Positions 8,519-47,898 of a stretch of 64,000 nt of DNA are shown one piece after another. The notes beneath the pieces were generated by a model. The model was given only the letters and a program-made list of their open reading frames with translations. It had not been told where the DNA came from and made no database searches. Within the stretch, counting starts at the first letter, position 1; the number at the start of each line of letters is the position of its first letter. The stretch comes from Lentibacter algarum (GTDB lineage: Bacteria; Pseudomonadota; Alphaproteobacteria; Rhodobacterales; Rhodobacteraceae), in contig NZ_JAHKQI010000008.1 of the NCBI RefSeq assembly GCF_018860975.1, forward strand, positions 783,635-847,634, written 5' to 3'. The translations under genes and the position numbers were made by a program.

Positions 8519-9529
8519 ATGTTTGACGCCCCTAAACTCACGCTTGGCCTTTTGGCTTGCTCGCTCGCCGCACCTGTGCTGGCTGACGAGATCAATATTT
8601 ATTCCTACCGCCAGCCAGAGCTGATCAAGCCGCTGACCGATGCCTTCACGGCCGAAACCGGCGTCGATGTAAACGTGGCCTATCTGCAAAAAGGCATGAT
8701 CGAACGGTTGCAAGCCGAGGGCGCGCGCTCACCTGCCGATTTGATTTTCACGGTTGATATTTCACGCTTGAACGATGCCGTTGAAGCCGGGTTGACGCAG
8801 CCAGTGACCAGCGAAACGCTGATCGCCAACGTGCCAGCGGCCTATCATGACCCTGACGGGCATTGGTGGGGCATGACAACCCGCGCGCGCATTGTTTATG
8901 CCAGCAAAGAGCGGGTGAAAGACGGTGAAGTCACCACCTATGACGACCTCGCCGACCCTAAGTGGAAGGGCCGCATTTGCACGCGTTCGGGCACGCATGC
9001 TTACAACGTCGCTTTGACCTCGGCTGTGATGCACCACCTCGGGACAGAAGGTGCGACGGCGTGGCTTACTGGGCTGAAAGCCAACCTCGCGCGCAAGCCA
9101 CAAGGCAATGACCGCGCGCAGGTTAAGGCGATCTGGGCAGGTGAATGTGATATCGCTATCGGCAACACATATTACATGGGCAAGATGCTCGCCGACGACG
9201 AGCAAAAGGCCTGGGCTGACAGCGTGAATGTGGTGTTCCCGACGTTTGCGGGCGGCGGCACGCATGTTAACATCTCTGGCGTGGCCATGGTCAAGACTGC
9301 ACCAAATGCAGATAACGCCTTGAAGATGATGGAATTCCTGAGCTCACCGGAAGCGCAAGAAATCTATGCGCATGCCAACTTTGAATACCCCATCGCCCCC
9401 GGCACGAAGGCCGACCCGCTGGTTGAAGGTTGGGGAAGCTTTGAAGCTGATGCCGTCAACCTGATGGACCTCGCAAAGCTGCGTAAGGATGCGATCAAGC
9501 TGGTTGAAACGGTTGATTTTGACGGCTGA
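8519..9529 (+). CDS. Periplasmic Fe(III)-binding protein of an ABC transporter (FbpA/FutA type)
   Basis: A protein of 336 residues with a signal peptide (cleavage after VLA near residue 22) and the start DEINIYSYRQPELI typical of class II ferric-binding proteins. The double tyrosine in NTYYMGKM corresponds to the iron-ligating Tyr pair of FbpA. The start was placed at ATG 8519 because GGAGA ends seven bases upstream, whereas the ATG at 8513 is too close to that site. No permease or ATPase gene follows; a terminator lies directly downstream, so partners must be elsewhere. The promoter carries an iron-box-like element. Confidence 0.9.
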   Translation: MFDAPKLTLGLLACSLAAPVLADEINIYSYRQPELIKPLTDAFTAETGVDVNVAYLQKGMIERLQAEGARSPADLIFTVDISRLNDAVEAGLTQPVTSETLIANVPAAYHDPDGHWWGMTTRARIVYASKERVKDGEVTTYDDLADPKWKGRICTRSGTHAYNVALTSAVMHHLGTEGATAWLTGLKANLARKPQGNDRAQVKAIWAGECDIAIGNTYYMGKMLADDEQKAWADSVNVVFPTFAGGGTHVNISGVAMVKTAPNADNALKMMEFLSSPEAQEIYAHANFEYPIAPGTKADPLVEGWGSFEADAVNLMDLAKLRKDAIKLVETVDFDG

Positions 9530-9551
9530 TTCTGACCGCTGAAAACACCGG

Positions 9552-9580
9552 AGGGGCGCGCCTGAGGGTGCGCCCTTTTA
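9552..9580 (+). terminator. Rho-independent terminator after the iron-binding protein gene
   Basis: The stem GGGCGC (9554-9559) pairs with GCGCCC (9570-9575), extended by a weak outer pair, and is followed by TTTT. It lies 23 bases after the stop codon and runs into the 3' end of the convergent sulfotransferase gene, whose stop is at 9578. Confidence 0.75.
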
Positions 9581-10465
9581 CGTTGTTATCAGGGTGATTC
9601 CGCCCATTTCGGCAAGTCGGGATTTGTCGGCCTCATAGCGTTCATCAAGGCGGGCCTTTTGCGGATCGGTGAAATGGGTAAACCGCAAATCATCTCGTCG
9701 ATCGGCATTGTCACGGATCACAGCTTGCCAAGCGGCGCGCTCAAGGGTTTGGCCGCTGCGATAGATCTCCTGCAACTGGTGCATTGCCGCGTCTGTGGCC
9801 GATGTGTTGAGGTCGCGCCTGGGCTCTTGGTAGGTTTCAGCCGCCGCCCCTGTTAACCTGCCGAGCAGCTCACGGCTTTTGCCACGAACAGCGTAGTCAA
9901 CCACTGTCAATTGCTCGGGATCGAGCACATTGCGCAGGGCTTGCACGGTTTCGACCCAACCGCCTGAAAAATTGCTCATAGCCTCCGCGTGCTCGGCAAA
10001 CGGCTTAACGGCATTGTCTTCGGCATGTTTGCGAAAGCCGGAGATGAACAGGTCATCATAGGGGCGGATCACAAAAACCACATGCGCGACTTTGCCGTCA
10101 ATTGCCTCAAGCGCATCGCGAAACACTTGCAGGCGGGGTTTGCGGTTTGGATAGAGCTTGCCTTTGAAGAAATGCACGATCACGCCGGGCAGGTTTTCCT
10201 CGGACAAGATCAGTTTTGGCTTATCGGTGACTTGCTTTTTGAGGGTGCGCTTTACTTTGCCGACGAAGGCTTGCTGCTCGTCCGGCTTGTGGCGCGGGCG
10301 CGGCAGGCGCATGCGCAACTGCCCGTTAGGCGCGCCGTCGCGCCCCGGATAGGCAAGGTCGAACCCCTCACGGGCAAGCTGTTCGCGATTAACGGCCAGA
10401 CAGTTCTGAAAACTCGAAGTGCCGGTGCGATGCGCGCCTGCGTGAAGGTAGATTTTCCTGCTCAT
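9578..10465 (-). CDS. Sulfotransferase-like protein
   Basis: A protein of 295 residues. The N-terminal strand-loop HAGAHRTGTSSFQ matches the 5'-phosphosulfate loop of PAPS-dependent sulfotransferases, and VFVIRPYDDLFISGF near the middle resembles the 3'-phosphate region, where Arg and Ser contact the nucleotide. The acceptor is unknown; related proteins in marine Rhodobacteraceae often modify surface polysaccharides or lipids. The rest of the chain has no motif that I can name. The gene stands alone between the terminator and the divergent nucleoside hydrolase. Confidence 0.7.
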   Translation of the reverse strand: MSRKIYLHAGAHRTGTSSFQNCLAVNREQLAREGFDLAYPGRDGAPNGQLRMRLPRPRHKPDEQQAFVGKVKRTLKKQVTDKPKLILSEENLPGVIVHFFKGKLYPNRKPRLQVFRDALEAIDGKVAHVVFVIRPYDDLFISGFRKHAEDNAVKPFAEHAEAMSNFSGGWVETVQALRNVLDPEQLTVVDYAVRGKSRELLGRLTGAAAETYQEPRRDLNTSATDAAMHQLQEIYRSGQTLERAAWQAVIRDNADRRDDLRFTHFTDPQKARLDERYEADKSRLAEMGGITLITT

Positions 10466-42903: not shown

Positions 42904-43713
42904 TTAAGGCCACTTACCAGATCGATCTGCTTTCATTCCGATGATTTGTTGCAAGGGCAATCCGATTTTGACCCCCAAAGACTCAGCGGTTTTGTTGACA
43001 CAGGATACGATGCCTTCTTCCCAGACAGACCGGCCATTGCCTATTTTGGCGGCCCAGTGCGACACCCCCGCCGCAGGGATTTGCTGATCGTCCAACCCTG
43101 ACAGTCGGGATATTCCCCAGTCATCCGCGCCTCCTCCAGCGTCGTTGAAGGCCACAAAACGCCCCGTTGCAGGCAACGCCAAACCGGGTGGTTTTCCCAG
43201 CACGCCGCCATGTGACCCCATCACCAAAATCGACCCATCATCGCCCGAGTTGAACAACGATCCGCTGTCAGCAATCACCAGTGACGCGTGCAGGCCTTCA
43301 ACCCGTAAATTGTAGCGCCCTTCGGCCACTTCGGCGAAGTCACCAATAGGCATTGGAGCTGTGGCCATCAAACGTGCGGCCTCGGTTACATGCTGGCCAG
43401 GTTTCACGCCCACGGCAAGCGCAGGGTCGTTCGCAAACGAAATCACACCCCGTTCTGCCATGTCCGCGCCGTCGCCAATGCGACAGGACATGCAGTCAAC
43501 CGCAGCTGCCGCCATACCGATGTCAGCGAGCGCAACTATGCCGCCAATCCCGGCTTGATCACGCCCAATGCCCGCGTCGTTAAACACCACTGCACGCAAT
43601 CCCGCTTTGGCGGCCAACATCGAGGGGTAGACCCCTCCATGCGAGGCCGAGATCACAACGGAACCGCGGTGGACATCCGTTACCATTGAAATAGAATCTA
43701 GATAATTCCTCAT
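42904..43713 (-). CDS. Unrecognised protein with an internal tandem domain duplication, TRAP-cluster associated
   Basis: A protein of 269 residues. Two halves repeat the same pattern: SHGGV (24-28 and 167-171), then F-N-D-A-G-x-G (44-50 and 189-195), then a GI..L segment, an AA residue pair and an acidic or polar IG-D/N-G (79-82 and 224-227), then I-S/V-S-x-x-N. The family is not known to me; the alternation of hydrophobic strands and glycine turns suggests an alpha/beta fold with the SHGG and FNDAG loops at a possible active site. It lies ten bases after the TRAP large permease gene, so a role in metabolism of the imported substrate is inferred. The start at 43713 follows AGGAGAG. Confidence 0.72.
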   Translation of the reverse strand: MRNYLDSISMVTDVHRGSVVISASHGGVYPSMLAAKAGLRAVVFNDAGIGRDQAGIGGIVALADIGMAAAAVDCMSCRIGDGADMAERGVISFANDPALAVGVKPGQHVTEAARLMATAPMPIGDFAEVAEGRYNLRVEGLHASLVIADSGSLFNSGDDGSILVMGSHGGVLGKPPGLALPATGRFVAFNDAGGGADDWGISRLSGLDDQQIPAAGVSHWAAKIGNGRSVWEEGIVSCVNKTAESLGVKIGLPLQQIIGMKADRSGKWP

Positions 43714-43723
43714 GCCTTCTCTC

Positions 43724-45007
43724 CTATCCAATGACCCACTGCGCAAAACCGACGCTGAACAAAGGGAATAGCGCGACCAATAGCAGAACAGAAATTAGTA
43801 CCGCCAACATCGGTGCCATTTCCCGCATAACTGCAACTGGGGAAACTCCCGCTTGCGCAGAAACGAGATACAGGATCACGCCCACGGGCGGTGTCAACAA
43901 TCCGATCACTGTTGACAGGATCAGAACCACGCCGAAGTGCACCACGTCGATGCCAACCGCTGTAACTGTAGGCAGCAACAAAGGCCCAAGGAGCACAAGG
44001 ATCGTGATAGGGTCGAGCATCATCCCCAAGATCAGGGTTAGCAGGACAACCAGCAACAACAGCAACTGTGCATTCAAATCCTGCGCCACGATGAAATCGG
44101 CAACGGCCTGCCCCAATCCGGCCGTGGCGAGGATCCAGACAAAGCTGCCCGCGCTGGCCACAATTACGAGCAACCCAGCAGAAGCGCGTGCGGCTTCGAC
44201 CAGGCATTGCCACAGGTCAGAAACCCCGACACTGCGATAAAAGAAAAGCCCAATGATGGACGCATAGAGCACCAAAAGTGCCCCGATCTCTGTCGCTGTA
44301 GCCAGCCCGAGACGCAGCCCCGCCACCACGATCACGGGCATCGCCAGCCCCAAAGACGCAGAAACCGCCGCTGTGCGAACGTCACCCCAACTGGCGCGCG
44401 GCCCTGTGGGAAACCCACGACGGGATGCTATGAACGCACCCAACACAATCAAGCCGCCCGCCATCAAAAAGGCAGGCACAATGCCCGACATAAACAGCTG
44501 GGTCACAGATGCGCCGGTAAACAGCGCGTAAATCAGCATCGGAATAGAGGGTGGCAGGATTGGCCCGATCGTTGCCCCTGCTGCCGTAATCGCACAGGCA
44601 TAAGGCGCAGGATATCCGGCCTCTCGCATTGCGGGAGTGATAATGCCAGAAATCGCGGCGGCATCTGCGACAGCCGATCCGGACACACCCGCAAAGCTCA
44701 CATTCGTCAACACATTAACATGGCTTAACCCACCTTGGCGGTGTCCTACCAATGTGCCAGCAAACTTGAATAACCGCGCGCCAATTCCAGCGCGGCTGAT
44801 GATCTCACCCGCAAGGAAGAAAAAAGGGATTGCGACAAAGATGTAGCTGTTCACACCTTGCACCAAACTCTGGGCAAGGATCATCGATGGCACAGTTCCA
44901 GTCACCAAAGCGTATGTTACGGCCGCGCCAGCCATACTGAGAAACACCGGAACACCCATGCACACCAAGAACAGCAGGACACCAAAAAGGAGAAGAAGGC
45001 TAAGCAT
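43724..45007 (-). CDS. dctM: TRAP transporter large permease (DctM family)
   Basis: A protein of 427 residues with about twelve transmembrane segments. Typical DctM motifs include GVPVFLSMAGAA near the N-terminus, AIPFFFLAGEIISRAGIGARL, FAGVSGSAVADAAAISGIITPAM, and GPILPPSIPMLIYAL. It is the ion-coupled channel subunit, driven by a sodium gradient in characterised systems. It overlaps the dctQ end by eight bases and is followed by the duplicated-domain gene. The symbol denotes the family, not a proven C4-dicarboxylate specificity. Confidence 0.93.
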   Translation of the reverse strand: MLSLLLLFGVLLFLVCMGVPVFLSMAGAAVTYALVTGTVPSMILAQSLVQGVNSYIFVAIPFFFLAGEIISRAGIGARLFKFAGTLVGHRQGGLSHVNVLTNVSFAGVSGSAVADAAAISGIITPAMREAGYPAPYACAITAAGATIGPILPPSIPMLIYALFTGASVTQLFMSGIVPAFLMAGGLIVLGAFIASRRGFPTGPRASWGDVRTAAVSASLGLAMPVIVVAGLRLGLATATEIGALLVLYASIIGLFFYRSVGVSDLWQCLVEAARASAGLLVIVASAGSFVWILATAGLGQAVADFIVAQDLNAQLLLLLVVLLTLILGMMLDPITILVLLGPLLLPTVTAVGIDVVHFGVVLILSTVIGLLTPPVGVILYLVSAQAGVSPVAVMREMAPMLAVLISVLLLVALFPLFSVGFAQWVIG

Positions 45008-45467
45008 CAGAGATCCTCCGCGCAGACCGCAAACTGCCAGCCAGTGCCAGTAAAATGCCTGCCACGATCAGTGGAGTGTATTTCCACCACGCAGTTGCAT
45101 CTACGGTGTCCAGCATTATCGATTCATAAACAGCAACCAACGGGCGGCTGATAACCACCAGCGAAACGCCCGCCGCGATCGCCAACCCGTCAAATGTTAA
45201 CAACAAGGCCAGGCGTGCCTTGGAAGGCAGTACGTCCGGCAGTAAGTTAACGCTGATATGTTCGTCTGACAGCCATGCTCGCGCGGCACCGAATGCCACG
45301 AACCACACCATCAAAATGACTGAAACTTCCTCCGCCCACAAAATCGCAGCCGAAAAGGTGTATCGCAAGACGACTTGTGCGAGTGCAATTGCTGTGACTG
45401 ACAGGATCAAACTTGCGAGACACCAATCAAGGCCCCTCGCAAACCATTTGTTACAATCGCGTATCAT
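45000..45467 (-). CDS. dctQ: TRAP transporter small permease (DctQ family)
   Basis: A protein of 155 residues with four hydrophobic helices, the DctQ layout. The conserved central motif WAEEVSVILMVWFVAFGAARAW is visible, with the first part a membrane interface helix. It connects the large permease in the inner membrane. Its start shares bases with the dctP stop (TGATG) and its end overlaps dctM by eight bases, so the three transporter genes are translationally coupled. Confidence 0.92.
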   Translation of the reverse strand: MIRDCNKWFARGLDWCLASLILSVTAIALAQVVLRYTFSAAILWAEEVSVILMVWFVAFGAARAWLSDEHISVNLLPDVLPSKARLALLLTFDGLAIAAGVSLVVISRPLVAVYESIMLDTVDATAWWKYTPLIVAGILLALAGSLRSARRISDA

Positions 45468-46477
45468 CAGATCGCCTGGATCTTGGCGAGCAGCCCTTCT
45501 GGCCAGACTTTACCATCCATGTCTTGCGCAGTTTCTTGAACAGCATCTTGAAAGGCCTGCCGTTCGGGCTGAATGATCTCGATTCCTGCGTCTGTCATGG
45601 CTTTGCGCGCTTTGGCTTCGTTTGCAGCAAAGTCTGTTGCCATATCCTTCTGAGTCAAGGTTATCGCCTGGGCCATGGCCGCCTGTACATCGCTGCCAAC
45701 CATGTTGAATTTCGCACCGCTCATCCACAAGCCAATGCCTGAAAACATGCTGTTCAGTTCGGTATAGTATTTGGTCACAGGGATGTATCCCAAGTTTACC
45801 GTGTCGATGATCCCGTTGTCCTGCCCTTCAACCATTCCGGTTTCGATAGCGTTGTAAACTTCAGGAGATGACATCGGAATCGGGTTTGCGCCCCAAGCCT
45901 TGAAGCTGGCGATAGTAATCGGATTTTCGATGGTACGCAGTCGCAGCCCCTTCATATCTGCGAGTGTTTCAACCCGTGTATGCGCCGAAGAAATTCCGCG
46001 TGGTGCGCGGTCGCCCATGTAGCCAATCCACTTGATATTTGTGGCCTTTTCGACTTCATCCATCTGGCTCGCGAACAGGTCGCTCTTGATATAACGCCGC
46101 CAGTGATCCAGATCATCAAACAGGTAGGGTTGCGACACCACACGGAACGTCGCGGCCTCTTTCATCACGGCCATTGCTGCAGGGTCGATCAGGTGGAAAT
46201 CAATGACTCCGACACGCAGTTGCGCCCACAGTTGTTTCAATCCACCCAGCGTGCCGCCAGCGTGAGATTCAATCAAAATCTCCCCATTTGTCAGTGTCTT
46301 AAGGTGCCCCGTAAAGTAATCGACAGACTGCTGGTACGCAGATTGTGTCGGGGCAACATGTGCCAGCCGCAGCTTTGTTGCCGCTGATGCGGATGTGCCT
46401 GTGGCCATAACAGCTGCCGCTGCTGCACCACCTGCAAGGACTGCCCGTCGGTTAAGTTTTTGGTGAAAAGGTTTCAT
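45467..46477 (-). CDS. dctP: TRAP transporter substrate-binding protein (DctP family)
   Basis: A protein of 336 residues. The signal region NRRAVLAGGAAAAAV resembles a twin-arginine leader with cleavage near ASA, about residue 34. The DctP fold is supported by LRLAHVAPTQSAYQQSV, GLRLRTIENPITIASFKAWGANPIPM with the conserved Arg that binds carboxylate, and QDNGIIDTVNLGY. A carboxylate ligand is therefore likely, but the exact acid is unknown. It follows the bicupin gene after about 46 bases, in which a hairpin is found. Confidence 0.93.
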   Translation of the reverse strand: MKPFHQKLNRRAVLAGGAAAAAVMATGTSASAATKLRLAHVAPTQSAYQQSVDYFTGHLKTLTNGEILIESHAGGTLGGLKQLWAQLRVGVIDFHLIDPAAMAVMKEAATFRVVSQPYLFDDLDHWRRYIKSDLFASQMDEVEKATNIKWIGYMGDRAPRGISSAHTRVETLADMKGLRLRTIENPITIASFKAWGANPIPMSSPEVYNAIETGMVEGQDNGIIDTVNLGYIPVTKYYTELNSMFSGIGLWMSGAKFNMVGSDVQAAMAQAITLTQKDMATDFAANEAKARKAMTDAGIEIIQPERQAFQDAVQETAQDMDGKVWPEGLLAKIQAI

Positions 46478-46514
46478 TCGCTGTACTCCCATATCGCGAT
46501 TAAGCTGTCTAATG

Positions 46515-46538
46515 CCGTTCGAGTTAAAACCCGAACGG
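46515..46538 (-). other. Intercistronic hairpin between the bicupin and dctP genes
   Basis: CCGTTCG (46515-46521) pairs perfectly with CGAACGG (46532-46538), loop 10. On the - strand it includes the bicupin stop codon and precedes the dctP start by about 40 bases. It lacks a T-tract, so it is more likely an mRNA-stability or partial termination element that sets different levels of the two products. Confidence 0.5.
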
Positions 46539-47306
46539 GTCTTTGTAGTCTGCGTTCACCCATGTGATTGGGGCTTCGGACCAAACCATAATCATTGCGC
46601 CAAACTCGGTTTTGATGCTGGTTGTAGCACCGGGATCAACGACAAAAAACGCACCCGCTTCTTGCCATTCGCCGCCCACGCAAAGCGCGCCACCAACCAC
46701 AAAAATGTCTAGTGGCTCATGTGTGGTGAACTCCGGGATCTCGCTATAGGGCAGAAGTTGCATATGCGCGCAACGACGGTTTTCACCTGATCCGATGTAG
46801 TCAAACAAGACACGGCGCGACACGCGCTCGATCTCGGTGCGTGCCAAGCGCACACCGTCAACCTGTATGTTAATGTCTGGGCTGACTTCGGGATGCTCGT
46901 TGACGATTTCGCCCGCATACGAGCCCGTATGTAGAGAGTTGTTTCCCGCCATATCTTCGGAGGGGTAGATCACTGGCGCTTCCAGCCGTGACACCATCAA
47001 GGTATCTACATAGGCCATCGCCGAATGCGTCGCCCCAGCCAAGTTTACACCTAACATGCCCCGTCCTGCATAGCCGTCGTAATCCGCAAACCCGCCTTCC
47101 AGAAAGTAGCTTGTTGCTGGGCCAAGGTGTTGGTGAATACCGGTTTCTGTCATCGAGTCTGCGCGCAGATATCCGAGATACTTACCTTCCTCGCGGCTTG
47201 CGCGAACCGATGCCAGCGCCATGCCTTTCTTGTCAGCTTTGCGCCATGTCAGGTCTTTGGCGGCATATCCGTAAACACCTGGCTGGGTCCGTTTTTCCAT
47301 AAGCAT
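46524..47306 (-). CDS. Double-cupin (ChrR-like) protein, TRAP-cluster associated
   Basis: A protein of 260 residues with two cupin-like halves. The first has GIHQHLGPATSYFLEGGFADYDG (shown in parts: His-x-His followed by the ChrR-type FLEGxFxD), the second HEPLDIFVVGGALCVGGEW followed by VVDPG. Such bicupins include 2,4'-dihydroxyacetophenone dioxygenase-like and ChrR-like proteins; a metal-dependent dioxygenase or isomerase acting on the TRAP substrate is inferred. It is the first gene of the cupin-dctPQM-unknown operon and has the MarR-type palindrome 17 bases upstream of its start. A second ATG two codons later is possible. Confidence 0.75.
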   Translation of the reverse strand: MLMEKRTQPGVYGYAAKDLTWRKADKKGMALASVRASREEGKYLGYLRADSMTETGIHQHLGPATSYFLEGGFADYDGYAGRGMLGVNLAGATHSAMAYVDTLMVSRLEAPVIYPSEDMAGNNSLHTGSYAGEIVNEHPEVSPDINIQVDGVRLARTEIERVSRRVLFDYIGSGENRRCAHMQLLPYSEIPEFTTHEPLDIFVVGGALCVGGEWQEAGAFFVVDPGATTSIKTEFGAMIMVWSEAPITWVNADYKDPFGF

Positions 47307-47322: not shown

Positions 47323-47359
47323 TTGTAACATCTGTTACTTTAAGTAACTTTTGTTACAA
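47323..47359. promoter_or_regulatory. 37-bp nested palindrome, probable MarR operator
   Basis: Outer arms TTGTAACA (47323-47330) and TGTTACAA (47352-47359) and inner arms GTTACTT (47334-47340) and AAGTAAC (47342-47348) share the same centre at 47341. The same bases can be read as two GTAAC-N4-GTTAC sites (47325-47338 and 47344-47357), 19 bases apart, on one helix face. A -10-like TATACT (47372-47377) for marR and TTGACT (47359-47364 on -) for the cupin side abut it. A further GTAACATC half-site stands just before the MarR start (47420-47427). Confidence 0.78.
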
Positions 47360-47427
47360 GTCAATATGGTTTATACTCGACCAAGACATCTGCACCGCGG
47401 AAAACTTACGATAGGGCAAGTAACATC

Positions 47428-47898
47428 ATGGATTTAGAGAGTTTTCAGAAAAACAAAGAAATAGAAAAGGGGCGCAACGACACCCAGATTATAGACACGC
47501 TGTCGTTCAAAATGCTTTTGGCGGCGAACCGCATGGTGCGTGCGTTCAACGATGGCCCCGGAAAAACGTTTGATATCCCCCTAACGGATTGGCGCTGCGC
47601 GATGGTTTTGGCGAGCAGCCCCGATTCTTCGGGTGAGCAAGTCTCGCGATTTTTAGAGATGGACAAAATGGCCATAAGCCGTGGTTTGCGAGGTTTACAA
47701 AAAGCCGGTCTCGCTACGGTCAAAGCCGACCCAACCAACCGCCGTCGCCAATTGTGGTCCCTGACCGCAAAAGGTTGGACACTTTATGATACTATTGTTC
47801 CCATGGTTATGGCGCGGGATGAAACGATCTTTGGAACGATGTCAGACGAAGACAAATCAGCCCTCGCCGCAGCATTCGAGCGTGTTTCACCGAGGTAG
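47428..47898 (+). CDS. MarR family transcriptional regulator
   Basis: A protein of 156 residues with a winged helix: the recognition part is MDKMAISRGLRGLQKAGLATVKADPTNRR (in pieces), with the wing DPTNRRRQLW that contacts the minor groove, and dimerisation helices at both ends. MarR proteins release DNA when a phenolic or carboxylate ligand binds. The gene is divergent from the bicupin-TRAP operon across a strong palindrome, so it most likely represses that operon and itself. The ligand is presumably the transported compound or a product. Confidence 0.9.
   Translation: MDLESFQKNKEIEKGRNDTQIIDTLSFKMLLAANRMVRAFNDGPGKTFDIPLTDWRCAMVLASSPDSSGEQVSRFLEMDKMAISRGLRGLQKAGLATVKADPTNRRRQLWSLTAKGWTLYDTIVPMVMARDETIFGTMSDEDKSALAAAFERVSPR

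Follow-up and report, generated by a model that had tools for sequence, protein, structure and literature searches.

The window, a stretch of 64,000 nucleotides of Lentibacter algarum DNA, carries an operon for a TRAP transporter that ends in a gene for a protein of no obvious kind, and the question raised by this locus is what that protein does. A first-pass annotation had described it as an unrecognised protein with an internal duplication, and had proposed it as a candidate for a new enzyme or binding family acting on an organic acid. The description as unrecognised holds, in that Pfam, NCBIfam, PDB sequence and fold searches matched the protein to no characterised family (see below). The features of the locus are collected in Table 1.

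Table 1. Features of the doubled-domain gene, its operon and the divergent regulator (window positions)
Feature	Position	Strand	Details
Doubled-domain protein gene	42904..43713	-	269 aa + stop (stop in coordinates), ATG start
Domain copy 2	42907..43296	-	residues 140-269; Ser167-His168, Asp191, Asn240
Domain copy 1	43339..43713	-	residues 1-125; Ser24-His25, Asp46, Asn95
dctM, TRAP large permease	43724..45007	-	PF06808, E 4e-105
dctQ, TRAP small permease	45000..45467	-	PF04290, E 4e-19
dctP, TRAP solute-binding protein	45467..46492	-	PF03480, E 4e-50
Bicupin, first gene of the operon	46524..47306	-	ChrR cupin-like PF12973, E 2e-12, two stretches
Inverted repeat, candidate operator	47323..47359		two GTAAC-N4-GTTAC palindromes
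MarR-type regulator, divergent	47428..47898	+	PF12802, E 3e-8

The window protein is certainly a tandem domain duplication, because motif pairs, a shuffle-tested local alignment, a profile-profile match and AlphaFold2 models agree. The motifs SHGGV, FNDAG and IGDG/IGNG recur at residues 24/167, 44/189 and 79/224, where they had been reported, with a spacing of 143 to 145. Aligning the two halves by Smith-Waterman gives a score of 162, compared to a mean of 32 (sd 5.8) and a maximum of 58 in 1000 shuffles, and alignment by hhalign of half profiles built from 80 relatives gives an E of 6.7e-44 over 118 columns at 36% identity. AlphaFold2 models the whole protein with a pLDDT of 94.3 and a pTM of 0.91; the first half also folds when it is modelled alone (pLDDT 96.5), and in the predicted structure the strands and helices succeed one another identically in both halves.

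The doubled-domain gene begins 10 nt downstream of the dctM stop, and along the minus strand the genes run in the order bicupin, dctP, dctQ, dctM and doubled-domain gene with overlaps or gaps of no more than 31 nt. DctP, DctQ and DctM all have Pfam matches and are encoded on one strand, as expected of a TRAP operon, for which co-transcription itself is a prediction. The placement of the gene directly after dctM, in one operon with the bicupin and DctPQM, is thus as the first-pass annotation had it. The gap of 121 bp between the bicupin and marR genes contains an 18+18 nt inverted repeat that is 83% complementary and that coincides in part with a weak promoter-like site of the minus strand (47364-47337). 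An extra GTAAC half-site is found at 47418-47425, just upstream of the MarR start codon. Judged by their sequence and position, the tandem palindromes and the half-site are a clear candidate for an operator set for MarR auto-regulation. Control from a MarR palindrome had also been proposed; of this proposal, the inverted repeat with its two palindromes beside a divergent marR gene stands, while the binding of MarR to the repeat is presumptive.

Relatives of the window protein were sought by profile scans of genome contigs. A single-sequence query found no relative in the first genome scan, and an alignment query was needed to reach the 372 relatives obtained in one scan, from which the 80 closest loci were retained. 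The family is real, widespread and unnamed. It ranges over Proteobacteria, Latescibacterota, Actinomycetota and haloarchaea, and the annotated copies on plasmids (from haloarchaea, Rhodococcus, Rhizobium, Aminobacter and others) are all called "hypothetical protein", with one further record carrying no annotation. Family members are present in 9 of 293 genomes of the window's own order, and in 22 of 250 genomes of a second order of the same phylum (here called Burkholderiales-type), about a dozen of the latter as a single-domain gene. Literature searches on DUF1805 with its members YunC and TA1206, on the gene set and on the apionate pathway turned up nothing about the doubled-domain family.

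A tree with 105 first and 104 second halves and 16 single-domain proteins resolves into three groups with support of 0.86 to 0.88, one holding 102 first halves and 1 second half, another 103 second halves and 3 first halves, and the third all 16 single-domain forms. Because the three kinds of domain separate almost completely, the fusion of two domains probably occurred once, anciently. The conserved residues are retained throughout: the column of His25 is His in 100/105 first halves, 104/104 second halves and 15/16 single-domain proteins, that of Asp46 is Asp in 99/105, 103/104 and 16/16, and that of Asn95 is Asn in 105/105, 103/104 and 16/16, respectively. Since Ser-His, Asp and Asn are kept in all three groups of the tree, the fused form seems, judged by residue conservation, to have both of its sites intact, the His of the second half (the His168 column) being the strictest. 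One relative, encoded at 8833-9783 of locus L024, has a Tat- or Sec-like signal sequence at its N-terminus and a Tyr in place of the first-half His.

The genomic surroundings of the family are dominated by enzymes that use TPP. An acetolactate-synthase-like TPP enzyme or an E1 alpha subunit is the commonest partner, one or the other occurring in 61 of the 80 closest loci; individually, the TPP enzyme is found in 55, E1 alpha in 45 and E1 beta in 46. Among the 293 genomes of the window's order, an orthologue of the TPP enzyme is present in 7 of the 9 genomes that have the family and in 0 of the 284 others (Fisher p about 1e-12), and in these 7 the two genes are never more than a few kb apart, and mostly adjoin directly. 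A homologue of the window genome's E2 was detected in only 1 of 111 loci, leaving the E1 pair without E2 in 110. Most of loci L028-L107 contain PDH-type E1 alpha and beta with no E2 nearby, mostly together with the acetolactate-synthase-like enzyme and the family gene, and the orphan E1 alpha/beta pair is worth a separate study. A near-strict linkage of this kind marks a catabolic route for which no name was found, and provides a handle for finding its substrate. One idea, that the acetolactate-synthase-like enzyme has the protein as a subunit, was dropped, as the family also occurs without that enzyme, and one neighbourhood cluster ("c12") that overlaps the E1-beta position was set aside as a probable shadow ORF.

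Partners seen in the window itself are less general. TRAP genes occur in 18 of the 80 loci, and the tie to a TRAP transporter that had been suggested therefore describes the window operon, with its DctPQM, but is not a rule for the family. The expected co-occurrence with the bicupin did not materialise, a homologue of the window bicupin being present in 1 of the 80 loci and, at E 1e-30, in no genome of the order's 293 other than the window's own. In two regions of 15 kb, L163 and L164, the TPP cluster and family gene adjoin an apparent homoprotocatechuate (hpa) meta-cleavage cluster with HpaI, HpaD, FAH-type and ALDH-type genes; these neighbours give a hint that the acid is aromatic in some hosts.

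A second setting is found at eight loci, where the family gene adjoins genes for a RuBisCO-like protein (OiaX-like), a four-carbon acid sugar kinase (OiaK-like) and a PGDH-type oxidoreductase, which together resemble an OiaK/OiaX/ApnO module. These loci (L151, L152, L153 and L154, which are Burkholderiales-type, and L173, L084, L020 and L026), some of which also have an IlvD-type dehydratase, span Alphaproteobacteria, Burkholderiales-type bacteria and haloarchaea, and in L151, L152 and L154 the order is RuBisCO-like protein, kinase, PGDH-type enzyme and family gene. Both doubled and single-domain forms are found in this setting, which suggests that the two forms do the same job. Distant members of the family have more varied partners, including acyl-CoA operons, AtuA and aromatic clusters. 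At 8764-11595 of L048, AtuA comes next after the family gene, and then a small protein and an HMG-CoA-lyase-like gene, an order that possibly links the family to the catabolism of acyclic terpenoids or branched acids.

The genome from which the window comes fits neither setting closely. Its best matches to the partners in the TPP-enzyme cluster are only 29% and 38% identical, compared to 57-79% (E1) and 64-72% (TPP enzyme) for the orthologues in relatives, so that it lacks orthologues of both enzymes. A search of this genome, which is 99.9% complete, found no match to the RuBisCO-like decarboxylase or the four-carbon acid sugar kinase, in a search run without a positive control. The window bicupin has a 45% identical counterpart in L069, where its neighbours are E1-alpha/beta, TRAP genes and a member of the family, and in L034 a protein 45% identical to the window MarR lies next to a family member and to TPP-enzyme genes. 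Because of these homologues in TPP-type clusters, the window operon resembles a shortened form of that system from which the TPP genes are absent. The pathway in the window genome may nonetheless differ from that of the relatives, because orthologues of the TPP partners are lacking and no OiaK or OiaX match was found.

These observations lead to a reading of the window protein, held here with about even confidence, as an enzyme of organic-acid catabolism that is cytoplasmic, needs no cofactor and acts at an early step on a branched or oxo acid. The enzyme reading is favored because the family elsewhere almost always accompanies enzymes that degrade branched or keto acids. The linkage of the family to these partners is strong, as a functional linkage, while the function itself is a prediction from sequence; the data establish the duplication, the family, the fold prediction, the co-occurrence and the preservation of the conserved residues in both halves, and it is from these that we infer the enzymatic nature of the window protein, its independence of cofactors and its place in a pathway. 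The protein is probably an enzyme belonging to a breakdown pathway that has not been described, and the earlier suggestion to this effect is plausible.

On this reading, each chain would contain two copies of an alpha/beta domain with one site apiece, formed at the C-terminal ends of the strands by Ser-His, Asp, an S-x-R-I-G-D/N loop and Ser/Asn. The secondary-structure prediction places Ser-His, Asp and the Ile-Gly-Asp loop at or just past the C-terminal ends of successive strands, and the C-terminal strand ends are the usual place for the active site in alpha/beta domains. In the window, DctPQM would import the acid and the doubled-domain protein and bicupin would act on it, under the control of MarR. 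In the relatives, the family protein would work one step before, or next to, a carbon-carbon cleavage or decarboxylation, carried out either by the acetolactate-synthase-like enzyme and E1 alpha/beta without E2 or by an OiaK/OiaX-like branch. Acetolactate synthase and 3-oxo-isoapionate chemistry involve enzymes of families that handle 2-hydroxy-2-alkyl-3-oxo acids. Because the enzyme families of both settings do so, our best guess, with little confidence in the exact chemistry, is that the reaction could be the hydrolysis or isomerisation of such an (acetolactate-like) acid or of its precursor. The signal-like sequence of the L024 relative, which implies work outside the cytoplasm, speaks against a requirement for NAD, ATP or TPP. 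It is doubtful, and rather speculative, that the family catalyses a hitherto undescribed cofactor-free reaction on acetolactate-like or related branched acids as an entry step common to two routes, one with a pair of TPP enzymes that run the acetolactate-synthase reaction in reverse and one with an OiaK/OiaX-like kinase and RuBisCO-like decarboxylase.

The same features can be accommodated, somewhat less comfortably, by a non-catalytic protein that binds or senses a ligand or stabilises its partner enzymes as an accessory factor. Two symmetric sites suit binding too, the nearest fold (TA1206/DUF1805; see below) has no known activity, and the linkage to the acetolactate-synthase-like enzyme is as tight as that of a subunit. 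However, the presence of the family in OiaX-like modules and in other operons without a TPP enzyme indicates that it is no subunit of that enzyme, the protein lacks DNA-binding and membrane parts and is adjoined by separate MarR, IclR or LysR regulators, and the invariant Ser-His, Asp and Asn at the strand ends suit catalysis at least equally well. Such a binding or accessory role is therefore somewhat unlikely. A narrower version of the enzyme reading, in which the protein is a lactonase or other hydrolase, and not an isomerase, that opens the imported compound or an intermediate, must be called unlikely: the exported L024 relative is compatible with such cofactor-free chemistry and the genes do adjoin uptake systems and decarboxylating enzymes, but neither a hydrolase motif nor a metal site came to light and known lactonase folds gave no convincing match.

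Comparison with known families bears on a further explanation. No Pfam, NCBIfam or PHROGs model matched the window protein at cut-off, searches of PDB sequences with the protein, an 80-row profile and a half profile gave only short local matches (e.g. to Y-family polymerases and DepH), and Foldseek found nothing at an E of 0.001 or better in the PDB and viral models. For both the whole protein and the half alone, the closest fold is TA1206 (1qw2, DUF1805), with a Z of 6.6 where the next row has 4.8; 68-71 of 102 residues match with an rmsd of 1.9-2.3, the Z is below the trust mark of 8, and the Foldseek E is 1.3. DUF1805 (PF08827) is also the commonest weak Pfam match, 62 of the 80 members having E < 0.01 (best E 2.9e-8). 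The window protein scores 18.3 bits, which is below the cut-off of 29.5 that is passed by the distant L024 relative (31.7 bits), and has two copies of a domain that is single in DUF1805; single-copy members of the present family do exist. DUF1805 is thus a likely fold relative, with the kinship unproven because the sequence part is a short motif, similar to one in Y-family polymerases, and the Z is too low alone. A fold match to no characterised family had been named as support for novelty, and this is what was obtained, the best match (TA1206/DUF1805) being itself uncharacterised. Foldseek rows for phosphoglucomutase, D-lactate dehydrogenase, the L-asparaginase C-terminal domain and SteA were put aside as weak, common alpha/beta arrangements, and McrC (TIGR03264, E 0.0024) was discounted because 1 of 80 members matched it. 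That the window protein is a diverged, doubled DUF1805 with the role of YunC/TA1206, unrelated to the neighboring acid catabolism, is improbable: the weak PF08827 matches, the L024 score and the lead of 1qw2 over the next fold speak for it, but the sequence match is limited to the C-terminal part of the domain, the window protein is under the cut-off and the genomic setting is mostly catabolic.

The likeness of the window protein to the IMS domain of Y-family polymerases (PF00817) lies in a short motif, a strand and a helix that span about 30 residues (Gly-Val-Ile-Ser ... Ala ... Gly-Val-x-x-Gly-Met); the local match recurs in 35 of the 80 members, with L023 above the PF00817 cut-off, but no more than about 44-61 residues can be aligned (Z at most 4.2) and the remaining fold is unrelated, so the resemblance is local. 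The likeness to DUF1805, TA1206 and Bacillus subtilis YunC takes in a C-terminal sequence motif and, suggestively, some of the fold within a single half, whereas the window protein consists of two fused copies, has the Ser-His, Asp-Ala-Gly and Ile-Gly-Asp motifs, and is found in a catabolic operon, like others of its family. The fold likeness carries no function; in the other direction, a DUF1805-type fold may gain a metabolic setting, for the first time to our knowledge. The acetolactate-synthase-like TPP enzymes and PDH-type E1 alpha/beta are partners of the family, not its relatives. The same type of association is seen with the D-apionate route (ApnO/OiaK/OiaX, with its 3-oxo-isoapionate kinase and phosphate decarboxylase), in that homologues of the kinase, the decarboxylase and a PGDH-type oxidoreductase lie beside the family gene. 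Because the L152 partners score below the equivalog cut-offs (OiaX 454 of 700, OiaK 498 of 700), the OiaX/OiaK-like module probably serves an acid other than D-apionate.
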